From IMG/VR virus record IMGVR_UViG_3300042197_003187, positions 1-40,631 of that record: 40,631 nt of DNA. One strand, written 5' to 3'. The notes under the pieces were generated by a model. That model did no database searches, was not told where the DNA came from, and worked only from the letters and a program-made list of their open reading frames with translations. The stretch is from a virus. Each line of letters begins with the position of its first letter. The stretch's first letter is position 1. Positions 20,908-35,432 of this stretch are shown here, in pieces. The translations under genes were made by a program, and so were the position numbers.

Positions 20908-20924
20908 AGGCCTGGATCAGGCCT
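20908..20924 (-). other. Hairpin at the major capsid stop codon
   Basis: AGGCCTG-ATC-CAGGCCT is a perfect 7-bp inverted repeat that includes the TGA stop of the capsid gene. No T-run follows it. It may act as an attenuator or an mRNA-end stabiliser behind the most highly expressed head gene. Confidence 0.35.
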
Positions 20925-21834
20925 TCTCGAGCACGATGGCGCTCTTGGGGTAGTAGAGCGCGAGGCCGCCGATGCGCGCGTGGGCGGCGACGGTGAACTC
21001 GAGCTCGGCACGCACGGGCGGGAAGAACTCGAGGGGCTGCGGAACGTGCAGCTGCAGCTTGTCGGGGCTGCGGTCGTAGCAGATCACGCGGTCCTTCGAG
21101 AGGACGCCGCCGGACTTGGAGGCTTCGAGCTCGTTGATGGGCTCGATGGCGGTGATCATGGGGTTGGTGCGCAGGAAGAACTCCATCACCGTGGTGTCGG
21201 AGGTGGTGCTGCGCGGGGTGGTGGAGATGATGCGGTACACGTTGTAGGGCACCAGCATCGTGTTGGGCATCTCCTTCATGTTGCTGTTCTGCACGATCCG
21301 CGTGGCGGGCTCGTTGAGCAGTTGCAGCATCTCGTCGGTGGTGATGTCCGCGGTGTCGAACCAATGGTCCGGCACCAGCTTGTCCACCTGGTTGTTGTTG
21401 AAGAAGCCTTTCATGCCGGAGGGGGCATCGCCGAAGTAGGCGATCTCCTGCACTTTCTCCTCGTAGGCGCGGCGCACGGCGTTGGCGCGGCGCTGCTCCA
21501 GGTTCATGCCGGGCACCATGGCGGCGGCACGGGTTTCCTGGACGGTGTAGGCGAAGGAAGCGCCGAGGCTGCGAACCGGGTGGGTGACTTCCTTGCGGAG
21601 CACGTCAGCGCGGGGCAGGTCCTGGGCTTTGTCGCCGATCACCTTCATCGAGCCTTGCTTGTCGAAGACGCGATAGGTGAAGGAATCAGCGCCGTTGCCG
21701 ACCTCGGAGGAGACGGGGATAACAGTGCTGTACTTGATGTCGGCGTACTCGACTTCAAACGCGCGGGCCAGGATGGATTCCAGCTCGCGGGCAAGAAAGA
21801 GGCCGACCGAGTCGTTACGGATTTCGGTGGTCAT
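20917..21834 (-). CDS. Major capsid protein (305 aa)
   Basis: Start at ATG 21834 (MTTEIRNDSVGLFLARELES), with GGAG eight bases upstream. The longer frame to 21915 lies over the upstream gene. It has an N-terminal helical arm, then FAYTVQETRAAAMVPGMNLE and YEEKVQEIAYFGDAPSGMKG, a GLxN-like FFNNNQ segment, and a C-terminal beta part ending ARIGGLALYYPKSAIVLEKA. This is the layout of HK97-fold capsid proteins of the DUF2184-like group. It follows the protease/scaffold and cement-like genes, the usual head order. It builds the icosahedral shell. Confidence 0.88.
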   Translation of the reverse strand: MTTEIRNDSVGLFLARELESILARAFEVEYADIKYSTVIPVSSEVGNGADSFTYRVFDKQGSMKVIGDKAQDLPRADVLRKEVTHPVRSLGASFAYTVQETRAAAMVPGMNLEQRRANAVRRAYEEKVQEIAYFGDAPSGMKGFFNNNQVDKLVPDHWFDTADITTDEMLQLLNEPATRIVQNSNMKEMPNTMLVPYNVYRIISTTPRSTTSDTTVMEFFLRTNPMITAIEPINELEASKSGGVLSKDRVICYDRSPDKLQLHVPQPLEFFPPVRAELEFTVAAHARIGGLALYYPKSAIVLEKA

Positions 21835-25340: not shown

Positions 25341-26786
25341 CTACAGCGGGGTACCGAAGGGCTGCCGGCGCTCGCGGGCGCGACGGGCGGCGCGCTCGGG
25401 CTCTAGGGCTCGTTGCAGCTGCGGAACTTTGACCCCGAGAGCTTTGGCTGCCTCGCTCATGTTGATGAGCCCGCGCTCCATGGCTTGGCGCGGAGCTGTA
25501 CGGGCGTTGGCCGTCAGGATACGGCGGGTCAGGCCGGGGATGCGGGGTTGATCGGCACCGCTGACGAAGCGGGAGCGGGGTATGCGGTCCTCCGCGAGGA
25601 GTTCGCGCTCGAGTGCGTCGTGGTAGCGCTTGACTGCGATCTCAAAGCGCTCGGTGTTGTCTGCGCCGCCGTAGGTAGCAAGTGCTTTTGCCTGCTTTTC
25701 TACGTTAGCTAATACGCCTTTGTATTTGTTAGTAAAATCAGCGCCGCGTGAGCTAAAACCTAAGAAGTCGGGAAGCCTACCCATATCGTACATCAAATTC
25801 ATTACGCCGTTGCGATAGTGTGCTGGCTGCCTGCCGTCGTGTAGTTCTGTGGCGTAGCCGAAGTCGATCAATGCTACTTTTTTGCTCTTAGCATTAACCA
25901 TGAGATTTCCGTTATGGATGTCTCCGTGGGCTAAGCCGGCTGTGTGTAGCTTGCGGAACTCGCGCGCGATTTTTGTTTTAACAATTAGTGGTGCATTTGA
26001 AGCGTTACCGTATGAGTCGCGGTATTCCTTACCCAAAGTCTTGTAGCCCTTCATATGGGTCAGTACGAGAGTCTGCGATCTGACTTCGCCATCGATGTCT
26101 CTGACTGCTTGCATACGCAACGGCGAAGGAACATTGACGCCAGCATGATCAGCTAGATCCAAGCGCCTGAACTCGCTGGCTACATCGTCCTCGTCGCCGT
26201 TGCGGAACAGTTTGATGCCGTACTTCTCGGATGGGTGAACGAAGTAGGTGCCAAAAGCTCCTGCACCTGCTTGGCAGCGTGGTTGGTTGACGTAGCCTCC
26301 CGCAGATGCGAGGCCCTGGCTGCCGGTAGACACCAAGGCGAGGGCGTGCATAGCCCCGGTGGAAAGGCCGTACCAATCGGTATCGGCGTCAAATTTCCCC
26401 GGGGCTTGGGTCTTTCCCAGGCCACCGCCGCATTCAGCAGCGCGGCGGCGCTGGTTGATCTGGTCCTGGACATCCCACGTCTGGCCTCCTGCGAGGGCTT
26501 CGTCGACGAGGCGCTGAGCTTCGTCCTCGGTGAGCTTGGGGTTGTTCAGCTTGTTGGCGGGGTTTTTGTCCCACGCCTCTTTGGTCATGTACTTACTGGC
26601 GATGGCGGCACCTCCTGCTACTACGCCTGCGACGAGAGCGACTTTAGCAGCTGTTTTGAGGGTTTCTGCTGTTATACCGCTTGCGTTTTTAGTGCATTTG
26701 TGCGCTTTGGGGATGTGGGAATTGCCGCAGGGCTTCCCCGGGCCGCCGGAGGGGGCGTCGTTCCTTACCAGGCCGAGGACTTTCCC
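25341..26786 (-). CDS. Kinase-like cargo protein, probably made by -1 frameshift from the preceding gene
   Basis: The frame is open from 26852 to the stop at 25341. Only two GTG codons (26852, 26834) could start it. Neither has a ribosome binding site and both lie inside the 239-aa gene. It joins that gene in the -1 frame at GGGAAAG 26780-26786, giving a predicted 714-aa fusion. Numbering from 26852, the order is: motif CGNSHIPKAHKC (42-53), hydrophobic helix VALVAGVVAGGAAIAS (71-86), a linker, then a kinase-like domain with glycine-rich GAGAFGT (196-202), Lys214, Glu227, HGDIHNGN (309-316) and DFG (330-332). These match Bud32/RIO/LPS-kinase-like enzymes and all catalytic residues are present. 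The domain is AT-richer than its surroundings. Substrate unknown. Head-operon location suggests virion delivery. Confidence 0.8.
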   Translation of the reverse strand, partial: GKVLGLVRNDAPSGGPGKPCGNSHIPKAHKCTKNASGITAETLKTAAKVALVAGVVAGGAAIASKYMTKEAWDKNPANKLNNPKLTEDEAQRLVDEALAGGQTWDVQDQINQRRRAAECGGGLGKTQAPGKFDADTDWYGLSTGAMHALALVSTGSQGLASAGGYVNQPRCQAGAGAFGTYFVHPSEKYGIKLFRNGDEDDVASEFRRLDLADHAGVNVPSPLRMQAVRDIDGEVRSQTLVLTHMKGYKTLGKEYRDSYGNASNAPLIVKTKIAREFRKLHTAGLAHGDIHNGNLMVNAKSKKVALIDFGYATELHDGRQPAHYRNGVMNLMYDMGRLPDFLGFSSRGADFTNKYKGVLANVEKQAKALATYGGADNTERFEIAVKRYHDALERELLAEDRIPRSRFVSGADQPRIPGLTRRILTANARTAPRQAMERGLINMSEAAKALGVKVPQLQRALEPERAARRARERRQPFGTPL

Positions 26787-27484
26787 GGCGTAAGCGCGTC
26801 GTCGCGGCGGGATACCTTGCCGCTGCAGCGCCACTTGGTGCGCGACAAGCACAGCGGAGTGTTGCGATCGGGCCCGCTGCAGTCCTTGCCGTGGGACTTC
26901 ATGTCGCCGAAGCTGCGGGCGCAGTAGCGGTCGCCTTTGGCGGTGCCGGGGGCGATGGTGTAGCCCTTAGCGCCGTAGCGGACGCGGTTCTTGCGGCCGG
27001 TCTCGGGGTTGGTGACGGTCTTGGAGTACTTCTTGCCGTCCTCGGCGTCGAAGCCTGCTGCCCAAACGTCGGTTTTGGAGCTCACCATGACAGGGGCGCC
27101 GGTGCGCTCCTTGCGTGGGTCTTCGCGGCGCTTGCGGGCGACGAGGCGGCGGCGCTCAGCAGGGGAAAGCGCCATCGCTTTGGCGGCCGGGAGGCATTTG
27201 GGCTTGCCTTCGCCCTCGGTGCGGTCGCCACAGGAGCCGAGGATGCGGCCGGTGCTGCTCATGCGCACCCACTTCTCCTTGAACCACTTGTCGAGGGCGT
27301 CGTTACGGAAGGTGCCGCCGCGCTTTTTGTACTCGCGGACCATCCAGGCGTTGGCGTAGGCGCTCGGGTAGATCTTGAACTTGCGTTTGGCCTCGGCTTT
27401 GACAGCGGCGTGCAGCTTGGCGTCGGCGAAAACGACCCCGCGGGCATCGGCGCGTAGGCGCAGGGTCGCGGGGGTGAGGTTCAT
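26765..27484 (-). CDS. Basic Cys-containing protein upstream of a frameshift (239 aa)
   Basis: ATG 27484 overlaps the previous stop by 4 bases. Residues about 36-76 (FKIYPSAYANAWMVREYKKR, DKWFKEKWVRM) and 85-120 (CGD...KPKCLPAAKAMALSPAE, then ERRRLVARKRRED) follow a pattern I associate with small basic proteins, DUF5872-like, in phages and giant viruses. Residues about 186-223 hold a second Cys cluster (DRYCARSFGDM, NTPLCLSRTKWRCSGK). Residues 136-145 carry SKTDVWAAGF, shared with two neighbours. The protein has at least seven cysteines and a high charge, so nucleic acid or metal binding is possible. The short tail after RCSGK contains GGGAAAG four codons before the last sense codon. Confidence 0.75.
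   Translation of the reverse strand: MNLTPATLRLRADARGVVFADAKLHAAVKAEAKRKFKIYPSAYANAWMVREYKKRGGTFRNDALDKWFKEKWVRMSSTGRILGSCGDRTEGEGKPKCLPAAKAMALSPAERRRLVARKRREDPRKERTGAPVMVSSKTDVWAAGFDAEDGKKYSKTVTNPETGRKNRVRYGAKGYTIAPGTAKGDRYCARSFGDMKSHGKDCSGPDRNTPLCLSRTKWRCSGKVSRRDDALTPGKSSAW
26780..26786 (-). other. Predicted -1 frameshift site GGGAAAG in the cargo block
   Basis: The zero frame reads CCG GGA AAG TCC and reaches TAA four codons later. The heptamer G GGA AAG is the same slippery sequence known from lambda G/GT. The -1 frame (GGG AAA GTC CTC) is open for a further 479 codons and encodes the kinase-like protein. GC-rich sequence directly downstream (CCGGCGGCCCGGGG) could form a stimulatory structure. 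I have not folded it. Confidence 0.72.
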
Positions 27485-28224
27485 GGCTCGAAGCCGGCGG
27501 CCCAGACGGAATCGGAGCGCTTGGTTTTAGCTGCGCCCTTGCGGGTGGTCTTGCTGCCGCTCTTGTAGCCCATCTTGTTGAGGGTGCCGTAGATGTAGGC
27601 GGCGGCGCGTTCGCCTTTGAGGCCCCTGGCTGCAGCCTGTTTAGCGAGCTCGGCTTCCATCGCGGCAACTTTGGTACCGCGGGGATCCATGCGGGATTCG
27701 CTGTCGTTCGACATGGAGTCCAGACCCGGGGGGCGTTTGGCGGAGGGGCCACGATAAAGGCGCTCAAGGGAGGCGCGCTGCCTGGAGCGACGTGCTGTCC
27801 GGGCCATGGAGGCGGCGCCTACGGCGGTGCCGATGGCACTACCGCCTGCGCTGATTGCGCGGAAGGTGGCTTCCTTCTTCAGGCGAGCTTTGCCTGCTGC
27901 ACTGCTGGTTTCTTGTGCTTTGGCAAAGGTGTTGAGGGCGCCGGCTGCTTTGAACGCAGTGCTGGCCGCGCCAAAACCGGCGACCAGGCCTGAACCGCCG
28001 CCTGCGGCCAGACCAGCGAGAGGTGCGAGGGCACCGGCGGCCGCTGCGACGTTTGCAGCGGTGCGGAGACGCTGGGCGGCCTTGGTGTTAGGGGTGACGT
28101 TGCCGCGCTTGTACTGCTGTGGCTGCACTTTCTGCGCCGCACCCTTGGTGCACTTTTCGCCCTCGGAGATGGATCCGCGGCCACATTTGAGGTCGAGACG
28201 GATGGAGGCTGGAGTCAGGGTCAT
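27481..28224 (-). CDS. Basic Ala/Gly-rich protein with CGxxxI motif (247 aa)
   Basis: Starts MTLTPASIRLDLKCGRGSIS, with the motif CGRGSISEGEKC at residues 14-25. Residues about 57-100 are hydrophobic and Ala/Gly-rich (AANVAAAAGALAPLAGLAAG), followed by GSAIGTAVGAASMA, so one to three membrane-active helices are possible. The C-terminal third is basic with GERAAAYIYGTLNKMGYKSG, a helical pattern also seen in small phage and host proteins, and ends in SDSVWAAGFEP. It lies three bases after the 241-aa gene and overlaps the next by 4 bases. No enzyme domain. It may be an internal head or membrane-targeting protein. Confidence 0.72.
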   Translation of the reverse strand: MTLTPASIRLDLKCGRGSISEGEKCTKGAAQKVQPQQYKRGNVTPNTKAAQRLRTAANVAAAAGALAPLAGLAAGGGSGLVAGFGAASTAFKAAGALNTFAKAQETSSAAGKARLKKEATFRAISAGGSAIGTAVGAASMARTARRSRQRASLERLYRGPSAKRPPGLDSMSNDSESRMDPRGTKVAAMEAELAKQAAARGLKGERAAAYIYGTLNKMGYKSGSKTTRKGAAKTKRSDSVWAAGFEP

Positions 28225-28227
28225 GGC

Positions 28228-28953
28228 TCAGACGTCGTAGGTGCTGGAGCTGGAGGAGAAGCCATCCGCCCATACATTAGAGGTGTTTTTTCGTAGGATT
28301 TTGTCTATTTCCCCTGCTTGTTTAATAGAAAGATTAGTCAGCTCCTGACGTGAAGCTCCTTTAGCTTTCGCTTTTTCGTACTGTTTCTTCCACTTAGGAT
28401 TCATAGCTTTAATCTCAGCCTGTGCTGCTCGGCTGTTCGCACGATTGCGCTTATAGGCTCGCACCACTTTTTGAACAGGGTTTACTTTCTGCGCCGCACC
28501 CTTGGTGCACTTTTCGCCCTCGGAGATGGAGCCCTTGCCACATTTGAGGTCGAGACGCTCGGCGGCATCAAGGCGGGCTCGGATGTAGGTGGTGCTGCGG
28601 TCCTGAATGCCGAGCTCGCAGGCATCGAGGTACTCGAGGGGGCTGAGCGAGTCGCCGCGCTTGCGCATCGGGCCACAGTTGCCGTCGCATTTGCCACCCT
28701 TCTTGCTGCTGCAACCGCACTCGGCGTCCATGGGCTTCTTGCCGTAGGCGCCATCCATGGGCGCCTTGGTTGCCTTGGAGCCCTTAGCGCTGCGCTTGCG
28801 GGAATGGCCAGGCTGCATGGCCATGTCCATCTCCTCTTCTTCCTCTTCGCCCTCCTCGGGCTCCATGTTGCGAGAGCGGGCGGCCATGGCGCGGCCTTCG
28901 CGGATGCCCTTCTCGTAGGCCTCGGATTTGTAACGGCGGGCGGTGGCGGGCAT
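28228..28953 (-). CDS. Acidic/basic Cys-rich protein with CGxxxI motif (241 aa)
   Basis: Start chosen at ATG 28953 (MPATARRYKSEAYEKGIREG). An upstream in-frame start at 29025 would add 24 poor residues. The order is: a basic helix, an acid run (EPEEGEEEEEEMDM), a Lys-rich stretch, a Cys cluster (AECGCSSKKGGKCDGNCG), then SPLEYLDACELGIQDRSTTY, the motif CGKGSISEGEKC, a basic helical part and a C-terminal NVWADGF motif. It is the first minus-strand gene after the head morphogenesis gene and the small plus-strand gene. Its last third is AT-richer than the first two thirds, which suggests a mosaic origin. Function unknown. Confidence 0.72.
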   Translation of the reverse strand: MPATARRYKSEAYEKGIREGRAMAARSRNMEPEEGEEEEEEMDMAMQPGHSRKRSAKGSKATKAPMDGAYGKKPMDAECGCSSKKGGKCDGNCGPMRKRGDSLSPLEYLDACELGIQDRSTTYIRARLDAAERLDLKCGKGSISEGEKCTKGAAQKVNPVQKVVRAYKRNRANSRAAQAEIKAMNPKWKKQYEKAKAKGASRQELTNLSIKQAGEIDKILRKNTSNVWADGFSSSSSTYDV

Positions 28954-28998
28954 GGCTAAGAGCCCCGAGTATTGCTTCACACAGCGTAGCTGCTCTGT

Positions 28999-29004
28999 GT
29001 TATA
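28999..29004 (-). promoter_or_regulatory. Possible minus-strand -10 element TATAAC
   Basis: TATAAC lies 46 bases upstream of the 28953 start, in the 87-bp gap between divergent genes. The matching -35 region is weak. A promoter here would let the 24-29 kb block be expressed apart from the portal genes. Confidence 0.3.
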
Positions 29005-29040
29005 GGGGCCGATAGGCTGAAGCAACTGTGGGTCTAAACC

Positions 29041-29280
29041 ATGAACTTGCTTCGACTGGTCGCTGGGAGTGGTGCAACTTCTGGGTTGCTAATTGGACAG
29101 CTTGTATTTGCTACTTTCTTTGTAGGTTCGTGTGAGCTGCCTAACCTATTGAACAGAGGTAGCGCTAATGCGTGCCTCGATAGGTGGATGACTACAGCTG
29201 CGCTGTTCTTTCCATCTGGTGTGGCAGGTACTGGTGCGAATGTCGCTCTCGACAAAGCCAAGCGACGCTTTCTGGGCTGA
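29041..29280 (+). CDS. Small two-helix membrane protein on the plus strand (79 aa)
   Basis: MNLLRLVAGSGATSGLLIGQ leads into a first hydrophobic segment ending LVFATFFVGSC. A short loop with C and W (SANACLDRW) follows, then a second hydrophobic segment (TTAALFFPSGVAGTGANVAL) and a basic tail (KAKRRFLG). VGSC near residue 31 is a weak lipobox-like site. Small proteins with this layout are common in cyanophages. It ends exactly against the stop of the minus-strand head morphogenesis gene at TGATCA, as the XRE gene does. The overlapping minus-strand frame has no recognisable features. It could be a holin-like or envelope protein, but nothing proves lysis. Confidence 0.6.
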   Translation: MNLLRLVAGSGATSGLLIGQLVFATFFVGSCELPNLLNRGSANACLDRWMTTAALFFPSGVAGTGANVALDKAKRRFLG

Positions 29281-30144
29281 TCAATCGAACGGCTGAGGGG
29301 CGAACTGCTCGAAGACTGCGGCTTTGTTGAGGTCAGCGGGGCCGACGGTCGGCACCCGGGAGACTTCCTCGCGATGGCGGCGAGGAAGAGCTGCGTACTC
29401 GGGGTCGATGGCAGCAATCTCGGGGTCCCAGGGTGCTAGGTAGCAGCGGCAGCGCGGGTGGGCTGGTGCATTAGTACTAGCGCGCCTGTAGATGCGGCCG
29501 GCGCGGGCGTTGCAGATGGGGCAGGTGCGGTCGTCGCTTGTGGCATACCACATGACGAGGTCAATGCCGTTAGCGGCGTAGTACTGGTTGCTGGCGGAGT
29601 TGTAAGCGCGGAGCGACTCGGTGCGGGCGATGACGTCGGCGCGGGATTTCACCACGCCGAGGCGCAGGCGCAGGTCGTTGGTGATGGCGTCGGTGGGGCG
29701 GCCTTCGGCGATGCCCTGGGCAACGAGCTCGGTGGCGGTGGTGGCGAAAGCTTCACCGTGGCGGCGGAGATAGCCGCGGGCCTGTGCTGCGGCGGCCACG
29801 GTGGCCTCGATGGGGATCGAAACGTCGATGCGCCGTCGATCGGGGGCGATGTCGCGCAGAAGTTCTCGGGCGACGCCGGTGCCGCTGCGTTCGGAACTGC
29901 GCAGGAGGCTACGTAGGACACGGTCGTAGCCGTCAGTGCGGTCCGGGCGGAAGGCGGGGATCAGCTGGCGGAACTCTTGGAGGAGGGCGACGTTGCGGTC
30001 GGCGGCTGGCGTGCCGCTGCGCAGCTGAATGCGGGTGCGGCGGAGGAGGCGATTGAAGCTGGTATCGAGGATGCGGTTGAACTGGGTGATGGTGACGTCC
30101 TCGGAGCGACGGAGGGCGGAGTTGTAGCGCTCAAGGAGTTGCAT
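29281..30144 (-). CDS. Head morphogenesis protein, SPP1 gp7/Mu F-like (287 aa)
   Basis: ATG 30144 shares one base with the stop of the 1148-aa gene (TAATG). The N-terminal two-thirds is helical (LLERYNSALRRSEDVTITQF and onward). The C-terminal part carries the family signature: SRADVIARTESLRAYNSASN, then MWYATSDDRTCPICNARAG (Cys208, Cys211) and a HPRCRCYLAPWD segment (His229, Cys232, Cys234), which likely bind zinc. In this family the protein works with the portal in proheads and is often injected with DNA. In most relatives this gene directly follows the portal. Here the 1148-aa gene is inserted between them. Confidence 0.88.
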   Translation of the reverse strand: MQLLERYNSALRRSEDVTITQFNRILDTSFNRLLRRTRIQLRSGTPAADRNVALLQEFRQLIPAFRPDRTDGYDRVLRSLLRSSERSGTGVARELLRDIAPDRRRIDVSIPIEATVAAAAQARGYLRRHGEAFATTATELVAQGIAEGRPTDAITNDLRLRLGVVKSRADVIARTESLRAYNSASNQYYAANGIDLVMWYATSDDRTCPICNARAGRIYRRASTNAPAHPRCRCYLAPWDPEIAAIDPEYAALPRRHREEVSRVPTVGPADLNKAAVFEQFAPQPFD

Positions 30145-33100
30145 TAGGTGGGGCGCCGTAAGTCTTGACGTACTGCTTCGTGAAACGCTAGCAAGTCTTT
30201 TTGAGTGAGTGCTTCTCCTTTGCTTATCTTTGTTTGTAGTGCTTTTTTGCGGTTTGCCATTGCGGTGTATAGCGGCGTATTCGTGTCTTTTGCTGCACTC
30301 ATTAAGTTGTTTATATCGGATAGGCCGTTTTTAGCTGTAGCGCCAGCATTACCGAAGTCTATTATCTTTACGTCATTGCCTTTAGTTAGGACATTACCCA
30401 TGTGTAGGTCACCATGGGAATAGCCTAGACGGTGCATCTTTTCTACTTCACGTAAAGCTCCTTGTACAGCTTTACCGCGCTGCTCAGATGTAAGCGATTT
30501 AACCGTGTCGTAGCCTTTTAGGTAGTCCATCATGACTACGCCTTTATTCGGGTCTGCGTTGTGGATTTTAGGAACGCTGATACCTGCAGCGTGCAGGGCG
30601 TTCTGTGTGTTTACCTCGTTAGCAAAGGCCGCTTTGTCTACTTTACCTTTAGGCGTCTTAATTACGTACTTATCGTCTTGCGAAATCCAGGTGCGACCGC
30701 TGACGCCCTCGGTGAGGTACTTGGCTCCCTGAGGCGGGTTGTTTTTGTCAAATGGTTTCGCGTTAGCAAATATGCGTTGGGCAGCTGGTGTCCATTTAGG
30801 AGCAGTGATCGCTAAGGCAGCAGCACCGGCAGCGGCAGCGGCGAGGGCTAAGCGCTTATTGCTACCGCCCTCTTTAGGCTTTTTTGCGGTCGCTGTGCCT
30901 CCAGCAGTCTTGCTGCAGTTGTGTGCTTTGGGTATGTGAGAAGCACCGCAGGGTTTGCCTGTAGCTGCGTCGGCACGGTCACCCCGGATCAGACCCGCCA
31001 TGTATCCCATCTGCTCCTCGGGGATCTTGGTGAACTTGCCCTGGTTCTTCAGCGCCCACAGGCGGTCGGTCTTCAACCCAGTGATGGCCTGGAAGCCCAT
31101 GCCCTCATAGATCGATTTACGCTTGGCGCCTTTGCCGTCGTCCTTGTGGGGGACTGCGAAAAGGACAGCGTTCTCGGGGAGCATCTCCAGCTGCGATTGG
31201 TACATCGCCTTGGTTGTGCGGATCAGCTGCTTGGCCTGGGCGCTGGGCATGCCACCGGCAGCGTCGTACTTGCTGTCGATCGTGAAGCCGAGGCCGTACT
31301 GGGGGAACTTGCTGACGTTGCCTTTGCGCTCTGAACCAAAAGTCAGAAGGCTGTCGCCGATGGACCCCACCGAGAGGTGGGTGCCGTTGGGGGTCACCCA
31401 GGTGGAGAAGTTGTTCTTGATGTCGACAGCGCGAATCTGCGAGCCCTGAGCACGGAGCGCCATGTGGGCGGCGGCGAGCTTGGCATCGCCGACTAACTGA
31501 CGCGCAGGATCGCGGAACTTCTCAGGCAACTTGTCGAGGCCCTCTTTGACTTGCGGAGCCGAGAGGCCTCGGATGGCTTTCTGGCTGAGGGACGGTACCA
31601 GCGTTTGGCGCTGCTTGTAGGCGAGGAGGCCGCCAACGGTAAGAGCAGCGCCGGCGGCTGCGACGGCTAGGGCTGCACCGGTGCGGGCCGAGGGCTTACC
31701 GCTCTCGGTGGGCTGTGCAGTTGCAGCGGCGCCTCCGCTCTTCCGGCACTCATGTGCTTTCGGGATGTGCGAGGCGCCGCAGGGCTTTCCCTCGGCGTCG
31801 ATGCGGGCGTCGCCGCGTTGGCGGCGAGCGATCTCGGAGCGGGCGGCGCGGTAGGAGGCCTCGAGGCTCATGTCCTCCCCGCGGCGCTGGGCGGCTTCGC
31901 GGAGGGTGCGGGCAAGGTCGGTGATTTGGGCCTGGGGGCTGCGGCGGCCCCGGGGTGGGGTAGTCGGAGCCGCGGCGCGGGTGCTGGTGGCGGGCTGGCC
32001 TGCGGCCTGAACCGGCACCAGGCGCTCGAAGCCGTTCTGCTGCAAATAGCGGGTGGCATCAGCGAGACCGGTGATGTCGCGGCCGGCGAGCTCGGAGGCA
32101 GCGGTGCGTGTCTCTCGATCCGAGAGGCTGAAGGTGCTGCTGCCGCTTACCTGGCGGGCGAAGTACTCCTTCGAGATGGCGTCGCTGAGGCCTTGACCAA
32201 TGCGGCTGGTGACGTTCTCGGGCTTCGCCAAGCGCTGAGCGAGGTAGCGAGCGTGACCGATGCGGGCGCTATTGAGTAGATCGCTGTAGCCAGCGCGGCG
32301 CTGCTCTGTAGGTATGGCGACGCCGGGCGTCTGGCGAACTTCGTCGGCGATGCGACCGAAGTACTGGTCAAACCCGTCTCGGGTCTCGCGGTAGATGCGG
32401 TTAGCGAGCTCGGTTCGGCTCACTGCGGCTTCCCGGGTGCGCGGAGCGGCACCGAGGATCTGATTCAGGTTGCCGACAGCGCGTTCGCGAACGTTCTCGG
32501 GGAAGTTGGCAGTGCTGGGGCCGACGAGGCGGTTGAGAAAGCGCGTGCGAGCTTCGGCGTCGTTGATGTTGACGCCCTGCTGACGGGCAAGAGCTTGCAG
32601 GCTGGCAGCTTCGCGGTTCAGCGAGCTCGTGAGGGCGCGGCGGACGTCGGTGTCAGTAGCACCGGCGCCTAGGCGAAAACCAAACTGCCGCGACAGGTAT
32701 TCGTGGGTGGCGGGCTCGGAGAAGGTGCTGCCATCACCAGCACCGGCGGCATTGGTGCGCTTGGTGCTCCAGAAGGCTTCGAGACTCTGCTGCCGCCAGG
32801 TTTCTGCGTTGGCACCGCGGGCGGCTGCACTGACGTCGACAGCGCCGACGCGATTGAGCAGCACGCGGGCGTTGCCGTAGTCGGTTGCGCGGCGCTCGAG
32901 CTCGGTGGGGGTGCGAAGCAGTGCGGCACTGAGGGCTGCGGGTCCTGTGGCGGCCTCGGTGGCAGCGCGAGCCGCGGCAGCCCCGGCGGCTGCGGCACCG
33001 GCGGCCCGGCGTTCAGCGCGGGCGCCGCGGATGCCCGGGGTGGCATCCAGGATGCGGTTGATGCCGGCAGCAACGGCGTCGTCGATCTGGCGGCCCACGC

Positions 33101-33590
33101 CGTCGCGGTAGAAGGGGGCCTTCTTGAGTTGGCTGTGGGTGAACAGGCCGAAGCCGACTACAGCGAGAGCAGCGGCGATGCCGCCGGCGCGGCGCTCGAG
33201 CTGGGCTTGGAGGGCCTTCTTGCGCTGCAGGTCGCCCGGGGTGGCTTTGACGATGCCGCGGACGATGGCGCGTTTGCCGCCTTCGATCTCGGAGAAGCTG
33301 CCTTTGCGGACGCCCTTGCCTAGGCGCTTGACGCCGCGCTCGATGTTGGCCAGGCCACTGACGGGGTCGGTGCGGACGGCGCGCAGGTGGGGGTCAGGGC
33401 CCTTGCCCTCTAGGCGGCAATCCCAGTTGGGTGGGATGCAACGGCCGCCACATTTGACGTTGGGTGGGTTGCAATCGACGCCGCGGGCTGTTTTACCGGT
33501 GCGGCTGCGGGCTGTGGCGTCGAGGCGAGCTTTTGTCGCCAGGTAGGCCGCGGTGCGGAAGCCTTCGGGAGTGGTGTTGCGGAGTGTCAC
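30144..33590 (-). CDS. Multidomain cargo-like protein with GNAT-like and kinase-like modules (1148 aa)
   Basis: GTG start at 33590, three bases after the portal stop, with GAGGGG upstream. Three sections each begin with the motif C-G-x-x-x-I-[SP]-x(4)-C. Section 1: CGGRCIPPNWDC (47-58), hydrophobic helix 136-150, then long Ala/Arg-rich helices to about 590. Section 2: CGASHIPKAHEC (604-615), helix 638-656, then a segment 720-860 with KSIYEGMGF, which resembles the end of a GNAT acetyltransferase. Section 3: CGASHIPKAHNC (881-892), helix 913-930, then a kinase-like domain with EGVSGRTW, Lys978, Glu992, HGDLHMGN (1059-1066) and DFG (1078-1080). The kinase DNA is AT-richer than the rest. It reads like a polyprotein of packaged modules. 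The activities are predicted only. Confidence 0.8.
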   Translation of the reverse strand: MTLRNTTPEGFRTAAYLATKARLDATARSRTGKTARGVDCNPPNVKCGGRCIPPNWDCRLEGKGPDPHLRAVRTDPVSGLANIERGVKRLGKGVRKGSFSEIEGGKRAIVRGIVKATPGDLQRKKALQAQLERRAGGIAAALAVVGFGLFTHSQLKKAPFYRDGVGRQIDDAVAAGINRILDATPGIRGARAERRAAGAAAAGAAAARAATEAATGPAALSAALLRTPTELERRATDYGNARVLLNRVGAVDVSAAARGANAETWRQQSLEAFWSTKRTNAAGAGDGSTFSEPATHEYLSRQFGFRLGAGATDTDVRRALTSSLNREAASLQALARQQGVNINDAEARTRFLNRLVGPSTANFPENVRERAVGNLNQILGAAPRTREAAVSRTELANRIYRETRDGFDQYFGRIADEVRQTPGVAIPTEQRRAGYSDLLNSARIGHARYLAQRLAKPENVTSRIGQGLSDAISKEYFARQVSGSSTFSLSDRETRTAASELAGRDITGLADATRYLQQNGFERLVPVQAAGQPATSTRAAAPTTPPRGRRSPQAQITDLARTLREAAQRRGEDMSLEASYRAARSEIARRQRGDARIDAEGKPCGASHIPKAHECRKSGGAAATAQPTESGKPSARTGAALAVAAAGAALTVGGLLAYKQRQTLVPSLSQKAIRGLSAPQVKEGLDKLPEKFRDPARQLVGDAKLAAAHMALRAQGSQIRAVDIKNNFSTWVTPNGTHLSVGSIGDSLLTFGSERKGNVSKFPQYGLGFTIDSKYDAAGGMPSAQAKQLIRTTKAMYQSQLEMLPENAVLFAVPHKDDGKGAKRKSIYEGMGFQAITGLKTDRLWALKNQGKFTKIPEEQMGYMAGLIRGDRADAATGKPCGASHIPKAHNCSKTAGGTATAKKPKEGGSNKRLALAAAAAGAAALAITAPKWTPAAQRIFANAKPFDKNNPPQGAKYLTEGVSGRTWISQDDKYVIKTPKGKVDKAAFANEVNTQNALHAAGISVPKIHNADPNKGVVMMDYLKGYDTVKSLTSEQRGKAVQGALREVEKMHRLGYSHGDLHMGNVLTKGNDVKIIDFGNAGATAKNGLSDINNLMSAAKDTNTPLYTAMANRKKALQTKISKGEALTQKDLLAFHEAVRQDLRRPT

Positions 33591-33593
33591 TGA

Positions 33594-35432
33594 TCAGTAC
33601 CCCTCGTTGTAGGCGCGGAAGGCGTCGGCCTCGGCGTCGGGCACTGGTGAAAGCCCTGCCACATTCTGACCGGGAAAGAAGTGCTGGACGGCGACTTTGG
33701 CGGCGCGGAGTGAGTTGAAGCCGGTGGTGTAGGGGCCATCGGTGATGGCACTGTCCAGGGCGAACCGTGCTCGGTAGAGCTTTCGTGCTCGGGTGCGGTG
33801 GGGGCCAAGGATCAGCACAGGGGCTGCGGCGCTGCTGTCGATGCGCTGGCCGTCGGGGCCGACGAGTGGGCCGGCTACGACGTCGCCGTGGCGGTGCGTG
33901 ATGCGGATGCGCAGGCCCTCGGCGTCGGCGAAGAGGGCGTCGCCGCGGTCACCTTCGGCGGGAGGCAGAATACCGCCTTCGGCGGCAGGTTCTCCCTCGG
34001 TGGGTGTGGCTTCGCCCTCGGGGAGCTCCGCGGGTTGCTGGGCGGCCTGCAGTTGGGCGTCGTAGCCCGCCATCTGCGACTGGAACTGGGCGTCGGTGCT
34101 GGCGATGAGCTGCTGGGTGACGGCTTCGTTGAGTTTTGTATCGATTGAGTACTCGGTGCCGCCGAAACGGGACTCGCGGACCTCCAGGGGGTTCAAAACA
34201 CCGAGCTGGATGTACTGGGCGTCGGAAGCTGCCTTGAGTTGGTGGAGCTCAGCCTTCTCTTTCTCGGTCTGGGTGAAGACCGAGGGGAACATCACCGACC
34301 AGGACTCGGGGATGCGACCGCGGGTTGGTCCTTCACGTGAGGCGAAGATGTAGGTGAAGACCTCGGTGATTGGGGTGCGGCAGTAGACCTCTTGCCACTG
34401 CTCAACGAGGGAGGACCAGATGCGCTCTTCGAAGCGTCCTTCTTTGCCGAGGCCACCGGGCGAGTCGCCCATGAGGATGGAGGCGGGCCATCCGGTAGCG
34501 GCCTGAAGATCCTTGATGAAGGGATCGGTTGCGGTGGCAATGTTGCTCAGAGCGCGGTTGATGAAGCTGATCTCTTCTTCGACGTCGACCACCATGCCGC
34601 CGTAGACGCTGCGGCTCAGGTTGTTGGCTTCGAGGCGCTTACGTAGGTCGGACTCGTTGCCGGCGGCGATGCGGTTGAACAGTCCGGGAATCTTGTGAAC
34701 GAAGACGTCCGAGTCGGAGGTCATCGACTCGAGGCCGGACATGGCGGTCTCGTAGCGCTTGAAGGCGTTCCAGATGAGCTGCAGAACGGACTGGCCCCAG
34801 CCGGTGTTGCGGGAGCGGAGGTTCCAGGGCAGGTAGAGGCCGTCGAAGCGGGCGACGCGGGTGTGGTGAACGCGGATGTTGACGTAGCCGCTGGTCTGCT
34901 CGGGGGTGATGCGCTGGCTGGTGGTGATGCGGTAGTGCGAAGGACGGGAGTAGTCGGTGATGGAGAAGTCCTCGGGGATCAACTCGTGGCGCGAAAGTGG
35001 GATGTAACCGCGAATGGCGCGGATGCGGTTGAGCTCGACAGGCTCATCGGGTTGGCCGCCGTCGTCGATCAGAAGGACAAGCCCGGCGCCGCCATAGAGG
35101 CGCTGGAGTTTGATGACTTCGGAGAGGGCGAAGTGGAACTGGGAAGCTTGCAGGAACTGGTTGAAGCCAGTGAGAAGGTCGGAGTTATCTGAGGCGGCGT
35201 CGCCACCGAGGGCGATGGTGGGGCGGTGGCGGAGGATCTCGTCGCCGATGGCGTCGACGTAGCGGCGCGGGATGCCGTTGGTGTAAAGGTATTCGAGTTC
35301 TGCTTCGGTTAGAAGTGTCTGAAAGCGGACACTTGTGGCGACTGTTTTATCTTTTGACGGGACACCTAGGCCTGTTAGCGCATTAACTAATGCACCATCA
35401 TTCCGGAAATTGTCTGAAGGTGCGGTAGCCAT
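33594..35432 (-). CDS. Portal protein, DUF1073 type with C-terminal extension (612 aa)
   Basis: ATG at 35432 (MATAPSDNFRNDGALVNALT). The core has LEYLYTNGIPRRYVDAIGDE, then LQRLYGGAGLVLLIDDGGQP, SRNTGWGQSVLQLIWNAFKR and SDSDVFVHKIPGLFNRIAAG, the pattern of the DUF1073 portal family (gp1-like). It forms the dodecameric DNA entry ring. Residues about 466-497 are a Pro/Glu/Ala linker, and residues about 498-612 form an extra domain (EGLRIRITHRHGDV, then YTTGFNSLRAAKVAVQHFFP) that core portals lack. It diverges from the HNH gene across a 217-bp control region and is followed within three bases by the 1148-aa gene. Confidence 0.88.
   Translation of the reverse strand: MATAPSDNFRNDGALVNALTGLGVPSKDKTVATSVRFQTLLTEAELEYLYTNGIPRRYVDAIGDEILRHRPTIALGGDAASDNSDLLTGFNQFLQASQFHFALSEVIKLQRLYGGAGLVLLIDDGGQPDEPVELNRIRAIRGYIPLSRHELIPEDFSITDYSRPSHYRITTSQRITPEQTSGYVNIRVHHTRVARFDGLYLPWNLRSRNTGWGQSVLQLIWNAFKRYETAMSGLESMTSDSDVFVHKIPGLFNRIAAGNESDLRKRLEANNLSRSVYGGMVVDVEEEISFINRALSNIATATDPFIKDLQAATGWPASILMGDSPGGLGKEGRFEERIWSSLVEQWQEVYCRTPITEVFTYIFASREGPTRGRIPESWSVMFPSVFTQTEKEKAELHQLKAASDAQYIQLGVLNPLEVRESRFGGTEYSIDTKLNEAVTQQLIASTDAQFQSQMAGYDAQLQAAQQPAELPEGEATPTEGEPAAEGGILPPAEGDRGDALFADAEGLRIRITHRHGDVVAGPLVGPDGQRIDSSAAAPVLILGPHRTRARKLYRARFALDSAITDGPYTTGFNSLRAAKVAVQHFFPGQNVAGLSPVPDAEADAFRAYNEGY

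Follow-up and report, generated by a model that had tools for sequence, protein, structure and literature searches.

Why does a gene for a protein of 1148 residues stand between the portal gene and the MuF/SPP1 gp7-like gene of a viral head module, and what might its product do there? The question is posed by a viral DNA of 40,631 nucleotides (IMG/VR record IMGVR_UViG_3300042197_003187, positions 1 to 40,631), which we call the window. An earlier note on this DNA had described the gene as inserted between its neighbors and had taken its product for a polyprotein of effector modules that could be cut apart during head maturation.

Genomic setting of the polyprotein gene

The window has an ordinary siphovirus order around this gene. 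On the minus strand, genes for the small and large terminase subunits are followed by the portal, polyprotein and MuF genes; downstream of MuF come small head-module genes, a virion structural protein, a DUF2213 protease, the major capsid protein and tail genes. Several of these products share two short motifs treated below, a cysteine tag, CGxxxI(P/A/S)xxxxC, and R-x-D. The genes concerned are:

33594..35432, minus strand: portal gene (PF06381, E = 1.5e-52), with R-x-D at residues 10 and 496
30144..33590, minus strand: tagged polyprotein gene, GTG start, 1148 aa
29281..30144, minus strand: MuF/SPP1 gp7-like gene (PF04233, E = 2.2e-15), with neither a tag nor an N-terminal R-x-D
28228..29025, minus strand: tagged head-module gene A, CGKGSISEGEKC at residue 162
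27481..28224, minus strand: tagged head-module gene B, leader MTLTPASIRLD, tag CGRGSISEGEKC at residue 14
26765..27484, minus strand: DUF5872 protein gene, leader as in gene B (MNLTPATLRLRAD), without a tag
25341..26852, minus strand: separate tagged kinase gene, 503 aa, R-x-D at 30, tag CGNSHIPKAHKC at 42, then a helix
22484..23761, minus strand: DUF2213 head maturation protease/scaffold gene, six R-x-D-[AS] sites inside; candidate R-x-D protease
20917..21834, minus strand: major capsid protein gene, N-terminus MTTEIRND

Pfam matches to portal and MuF proteins on either side bear out the placement in the head module, and both junctions are as tight as had been noted: the portal gene lies 3 bases upstream, and the overlap with the MuF gene is a single base (TAATG). 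The gene is not an insertion, however, but is conserved in its lineage, being carried by all 76 related loci that we fetched in a scan of 2.9 million viral contigs. The order of portal, polyprotein gene and MuF was kept wherever the neighbors were covered in these loci. Three adjoining head-module proteins of the window (26765-29025) have a VWA[AD]GF motif in common, near the C-terminus in two of them. The MuF gene is interrupted at residue 232 by some 275 additional aa in two related loci (L020:9738-11486 and L057:3797-5536); in L020 this stretch matched PF14890, an intein splicing domain, with a score below the Pfam cut-off (E = 2.9e-6).

No relative of the core was found in 84,980 species genomes, and tblastn searches of 50,697 phage records with the polyprotein, its N-terminus and the tag returned no relative. 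The nearest cultured portal is that of the Synechococcus siphovirus S-CBS4 (39%), followed by that of the Aphanizomenon phage CL131. These portals, our one guide to the host given that no core relative was found in those genomes, make a cyanobacterial host likely, and the virus is most likely a cyanobacterial siphovirus.

Architecture of the polyprotein

The features located within the polyprotein gene are, from its start:

31782..33590, minus strand: conserved all-alpha core, residues 1-603 (33-row alignment; AlphaFold2 mean pLDDT 76)
33519..33527, minus strand: R-x-D site 1 (RLD, residues 22-24), candidate leader cleavage site, kept in 45 of 45 relatives
33417..33473, minus strand: tag 1, four-cysteine form, residues 40-58 (C-x6-CGGRCIPPNWDC)
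33132..33188, minus strand: hydrophobic helix in the core, about residues 135-153 (hydropathy, AlphaFold2)
31797..31817, minus strand: R-x-D site 2 (RGDARID, residues 592-598), candidate cut before tag 2
31746..31781, minus strand: tag 2 (CGASHIPKAHEC, residues 604-615)
31611..31676, minus strand: Ala/Gly-rich hydrophobic helix 2, about residues 639-660
30972..31592, minus strand: GNAT-like cargo domain, about residues 667-873 (AlphaFold2 and Foldseek; separate tagged homologues)
30969..30986, minus strand: R-x-D site 3 (RGDRAD, residues 869-874), candidate cut before tag 3
30915..30950, minus strand: tag 3 (CGASHIPKAHNC, residues 881-892)
30792..30851, minus strand: Ala-rich hydrophobic helix 3, about residues 914-933
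30291..30740, minus strand: RIO/ABC1-like kinase cargo domain, about residues 951-1100 (Pfam, catalytic residues)

The threefold repeat of motif, helix and domain that had been read from the sequence is correct as to its elements, with all three motifs (CGGRCIPPNWDC at 47, CGASHIPKAHEC at 604, CGASHIPKAHNC at 881) and the helices present, and the long first section is helical in the AlphaFold2 model as expected. The three sections are not equal, however: the first is a conserved core with a four-cysteine tag, and only the second and third are exchangeable. The first repeat is also looser than the earlier note had it, since its helix starts about 88 residues past the tag, compared to about 33-35 residues in both cargo sections. 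No significant match to the core emerged among viral structures in a fold search; the core probably docks near the portal.

Of the two folds that had been anticipated for the cargo domains, the kinase was recovered and the GNAT-like one probably so. The kinase matched Pfam RIO1 at 37.9 bits (cut-off 22; E = 1.8e-9), with the catalytic K, E, HxD...N and DFG intact (residues 976-1080; HGDLHMGN at 1059-1066, IDFG at 1077-1080). The separate 503-aa kinase (25341-26852) likewise has HGDIHNGN and IDFG, so that HxD..N and DFG are intact in both kinase genes of the window, as they are in 15 of the 16 tagged relatives that have them. We regard the kinase identity, read from these signatures, as well supported. 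For the other module, the AlphaFold2 model was confident over module residues 64-270, and most of the leading PDB matches are GNAT folds (ICL2 C-terminal domain, AtaT, NatB, NatC), the best Foldseek E-value being a weak 2.7e-3. The same module aligned by hhalign with separate tagged genes of two related loci, L098 and L072 (99.4% and 98.6%). An alignment of 18 sequences, read by eye, contained no conserved G-x-G of an acetyl-CoA P-loop past the fourth strand. A GNAT fold is therefore likely from the models; the fold matches are weak but consistent with the GNAT-like region first proposed, and it is the acetyl-CoA loop that is not conserved. The modular effector architecture holds, with unrelated enzyme-type domains standing behind the tags.

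Exchange of cargo modules among relatives

Comparison of the related loci indicated that the cargo varies behind a constant core. Among 62 complete polyprotein genes, 14 have one tag, 32 have two and 16 have three, and behind the conserved core stand no, one or two exchangeable cargo modules. Kinase, GNAT-like, LRAT/NlpC and weakly supported metallopeptidase-like domains occur as cargo in the relatives, some of which pair domains in one polypeptide (GNAT with LRAT, and other pairs). A cargo of about 550 aa in three loci (L053, L073, L075) had no Pfam match.

The boundaries of exchange coincide with the modules. Between the window and two loci (L013, L011), DNA is 85-87% identical through the portal and core and about 60 bases are kept at the tag; there is no DNA match over the cargo, and identity resumes at the MuF start codon. 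Two others (L007, L009) lack the kinase module alone, and precisely. In L012, the kinase module is far closer to that of the window (dN 0.075) than the core is (dN 0.49), which is what the exchange of a cassette would produce. Against the nearest relatives, dN/dS was 0.02-0.17 in most comparisons of modules, reflecting purifying selection, with the kinase module (0.03-0.09) in the most constrained group.

A cysteine tag shared by fused and separate proteins

Each module follows the same layout: R-x-D, then CGxxxI(P/A/S)xxxxC, nearly always an Ala/Gly-rich hydrophobic helix, and then an enzyme domain. The pattern CGxxxIxxxxxC occurs six times in the window proteome, in four genes within an 8.2-kb block (25341-33590), compared to 0.004 per window in shuffled proteins. 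Three of these copies belong to separate genes (the 503-aa kinase and head-module genes A and B); in the relatives, separate tagged genes encode an ADP-ribosyltransferase (L097), GNAT-like proteins (L098, L072) and a kinase. For an unbiased scan, we used a degenerate DNA pattern for CGxxHIPxxHxC over the 2.9 million viral contigs, and its matches were almost only to the polyprotein family. A hydrophobic helix stands behind 115 of the 119 in-frame tags with enough sequence in that scan; by a stricter measure, 53% of 118 distinct tags had a best 19-residue hydropathy of at least 1.6, compared to 1-2% of control windows. One contig from the pattern scan (L133) had no capsid or protease relative and was set aside.

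The cysteines of the tag are paired: the first and twelfth positions (C1 and C12) always occur together, and C5 occurs only with C(-7) (63 of 63). All eight cysteines of the polyprotein fall within tags. We rejected the view that the tag is nothing but a zinc knuckle, as many tags have no ligands at positions 5 and 10 and C1 and C12 are invariant. A DNA recombination sequence was likewise rejected: the GKPCGASHIPKAH common to tags 2 and 3 is written in different synonymous codons, with 43 of 60 bases identical over a wider stretch. Identical peptides from different codons indicate that the constraint acts on the protein.

Two further arrangements were observed. A separate two-tag protein with a kinase after its second tag (L172:9439-11871) forms a second small polyprotein outside the portal-MuF gap. 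A 105-kb contig (L135) has five related tags in two adjacent proteins, without the hydrophobic helix and with no detectable MuF gene.

R-x-D as a candidate cleavage site

Of 222 cargo tags, 98% have R-x-D in the 25 residues before them, as do 88% of core tags, compared to 5.7% of control windows, in counts that were made on the sequences in which the motif was first noticed and that are not independent, the motif being partly inherited with the tag. For this reason, the weight of the R-x-D case rests on proteins unrelated to one another and on the phages S-CBS4 and CL131. In the head proteins of the window, R-x-D-[AS] was observed 21 times against 4.1 expected (z = 8.8), compared to two times against 4.2 expected in its other proteins (z = -1.1). 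The control patterns D-x-R, K-x-D and R-x-E showed no enrichment in the head proteins; E-x-R was mildly enriched (z = 2.8). Eight of 11 head proteins and 2 of 19 others have an N-terminal R-x-D (p = 0.001); the motif lies at residues 6-10 in the capsid protein, protease and portal, and is kept across the relatives of the portal, capsid, protease and polyprotein; it is absent from MuF.

Head proteins of S-CBS4 and CL131 were also enriched (z = 4.1 and 5.7, respectively), as was the 'tail/other' group of CL131 (z = 5.2), which included the tagged gp45, gp47 and gp48. Two DUF2213 phages of other hosts, Magia and AbTJ, showed no R-x-D enrichment. We therefore rejected R-x-D as a general DUF2213 property; its specificity would be particular to the protease clade of the window.

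The simplest reading is that R-x-D marks a putative cleavage site of the head protease. Prohead proteases of T4 and SPN3US cut after x-x-E, namely A-x-E in SPN3US and I-T-E or L-T-E in T4 Alt, which loses six N-terminal residues to such a cut (PMC5694885). We propose a site other than the I/L-x-E of T4, since R-x-D is enriched and R-x-E is not. The cuts predicted earlier near residues 600 and 880 are supported circumstantially, given that R-x-D-A sites stand there (592-599 and 872-875) and the motif is enriched in head proteins only; the sites themselves are present, and it is their cleavage that we infer.

Tagged proteins of cultured cyanophages

Pattern reading of genomes, the one method by which these tags were found, also revealed them in two cultured cyanophages. 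In Aphanizomenon phage vB_AphaS-CL131 (MG209611), gp48 (1811 aa) has five tags, four of them preceded by R-x-D, together with esterase/lipase-like domains and hydrophobic helices; three more proteins, gp44, gp45 and gp47, also carry the tag. CL131 gp12 (L198:7947-12128) is a fusion of portal, inorganic pyrophosphatase (InPase) and MuF of 1393 aa, and four of its eight R-x-D sites (21, 503, 753, 983) are near domain boundaries. LC-MS/MS of CL131 virions identified 23 proteins, including the portal fusion, from fully tryptic peptides only (PMC6293099).

Planktothrix phage PaV-LD (NC_016564) has the four-cysteine tag in seven proteins, in several of which R-x-D precedes it. Two of the tagged proteins were labeled virion proteins by the depositors, the tagged ORF079R (L231:3749-5524) has two ADP-ribosyltransferase-like stretches, and PHROG 16619 (minor head protein) spans the tag region. 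The PaV-LD tags mostly have no hydrophobic helix, indicating that the helix is not essential to the tag.

Proposed function and alternative explanations

From the architecture, the tag, the R-x-D statistics, the cassette exchange and the purifying selection, all read from sequence, we infer packaging, cleavage, injection, targets and host as follows. With a probability of about 0.55, the gene encodes a head-module polyprotein that would carry host-directed effectors into the virion by tag-dependent packaging, R-x-D cleavage and delivery with the DNA. Each cargo module consists of an R-x-D leader, a CGxxxIPxxxxC tag, a hydrophobic helix and an enzyme, here GNAT-like and then a kinase. The tag, with or without the leader, would be a shared label that brings cargo into the prohead, whether it is part of the chain or has a gene of its own. 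Cuts after R-x-D would most likely be made by the DUF2213 maturation protease; they would remove the leaders from the portal, the capsid protein and the cargo, and free the cargo modules from the chain. DNA and cargo would then reach the cell together; the helix would insert into the membrane or cross it, and the delivered modules would modify host proteins early in infection. We give slightly less than an even chance to the broader proposal that cyanobacterial siphoviruses share this delivery code, in which a protease-cut R-x-D leader and a cysteine-loop tag would recruit any attached protein, whether from separate genes or from chains of up to five modules that are cut, as a phage counterpart of viral polyproteins.

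The same motifs might instead serve assembly, with the polyprotein packaged and delivered whole, and R-x-D and the tag binding scaffold, capsid protein or portal without being cut. The position of the N-terminal R-x-D very near the ends of the capsid protein, protease and portal is what a docking motif would look like, and the lack of enrichment in other DUF2213 phages also fits. We nonetheless consider this explanation less likely, as R-x-D-[AS] occurs within the scaffold region of the protease, close to the portal C-terminus and at domain boundaries of the unrelated CL131 fusion, which is a cleavage pattern, and R-x-D has the x-x-acidic form of known prohead protease sites (PMC5694885).

It is less probable still that the modules act late in the producing cell, for example in takeover, superinfection exclusion or lysis timing, without delivery to the next host. 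A late-gene location alone is no proof of packaging, and the protein could be held in the membrane of the producing cell by its hydrophobic helices; against this, the tag clusters in the head module, R-x-D is common to capsid, portal and protease, and PaV-LD provides two tagged proteins with a virion label. Least probable is a purely structural role, in which the tag is a zinc-binding or disulfide element stabilizing head proteins and the apparent enzymes have decayed into structural domains. The paired cysteines, their confinement to tags and the GNAT-like domain without a clear acetyl-CoA loop would suit this role, but the kinase signatures are intact in both genes and nearly all tagged relatives, the kinase is under strong constraint, and the cargo is swapped like effectors, unlike structural parts.

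Comparison with known systems

If polyprotein delivery is correct, it would explain how unrelated effectors reach the virion. A shared tag and candidate cleavage motif would make packaged effectors recognizable in cyanophages, whose head-module genes are mostly unannotated, and would offer a simple rule for finding deliverable cyanophage kinases, acetyltransferases, ADP-ribosyltransferases and esterases; if the tag is a packaging label, it would constitute a concrete, testable delivery code. In a limited literature search, we found no prior description of the tag, the R-x-D motif or the plug-in polyprotein form.

The closest cultured counterparts are those described above. CL131 gp48 and gp12 resemble the polyprotein in their tags, R-x-D leaders and helices, and in the R-x-D sites near the domain boundaries of gp12; they differ in having other effectors, no homologous core and another gene location, and are annotated only as hypothetical or portal proteins. 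PaV-LD shares the four-cysteine tags and some upstream R-x-D motifs, but on separate genes and mostly without the helix. MuF polymorphic toxins (Jamet et al., 2017; PMC5576092) have variable C-terminal effectors as well, and these are delivered from the portal-MuF region of the phage head. In those toxins MuF is fused N-terminally to the toxin, whereas here MuF is separate and untagged and the carrier is a different, helical core; Pfam detected no MuF domain in the 1148-aa polyprotein.

Polyvalent proteins of phages and conjugative elements combine unrelated enzymes, kinases and GNATs among them, are predicted to be packaged and injected, and are suspected of cassette-like recombination; few are reported from cyanophages (Iyer et al., 2017; PMC5512222). 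Like them, the polyprotein is a large multidomain protein encoded among late virion genes, beside portal and MuF, and has at least two unrelated enzymatic domains (the kinase by Pfam, the GNAT-like fold more weakly). It differs in that a shared tag and an R-x-D leader recur ahead of each module. It had no match to the polyvalent-specific Pfam domains, and polyvalent kinases have an insert between the conserved H and D (PMC5512222) that is absent from HGDLHMGN and HGDIHNGN here.

T4 internal proteins have only their capsid targeting sequence in common (PMC3012670), and DarB of P1 has an N-terminal packaging signal (PMC9024508). As in the T4 internal proteins and Alt, where diverse cargo aimed at the host bears one short targeting sequence cut at an x-x-acidic site (by gp21), a short sequence is shared here by unrelated cargo (kinase, GNAT-like, LRAT, ADP-ribosyltransferase and unassigned proteins) and would direct it to the capsid. 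T4 uses I/L-x-E and its own targeting sequence, whereas R-x-D and CGxxxIPxxxxC are found here, with several cargoes in one chain. These parallels suggest that the polyprotein is of the polyvalent or injected-effector kind, with a logic resembling that of the T4 capsid targeting sequence (PMC5512222, PMC3012670, PMC9024508).
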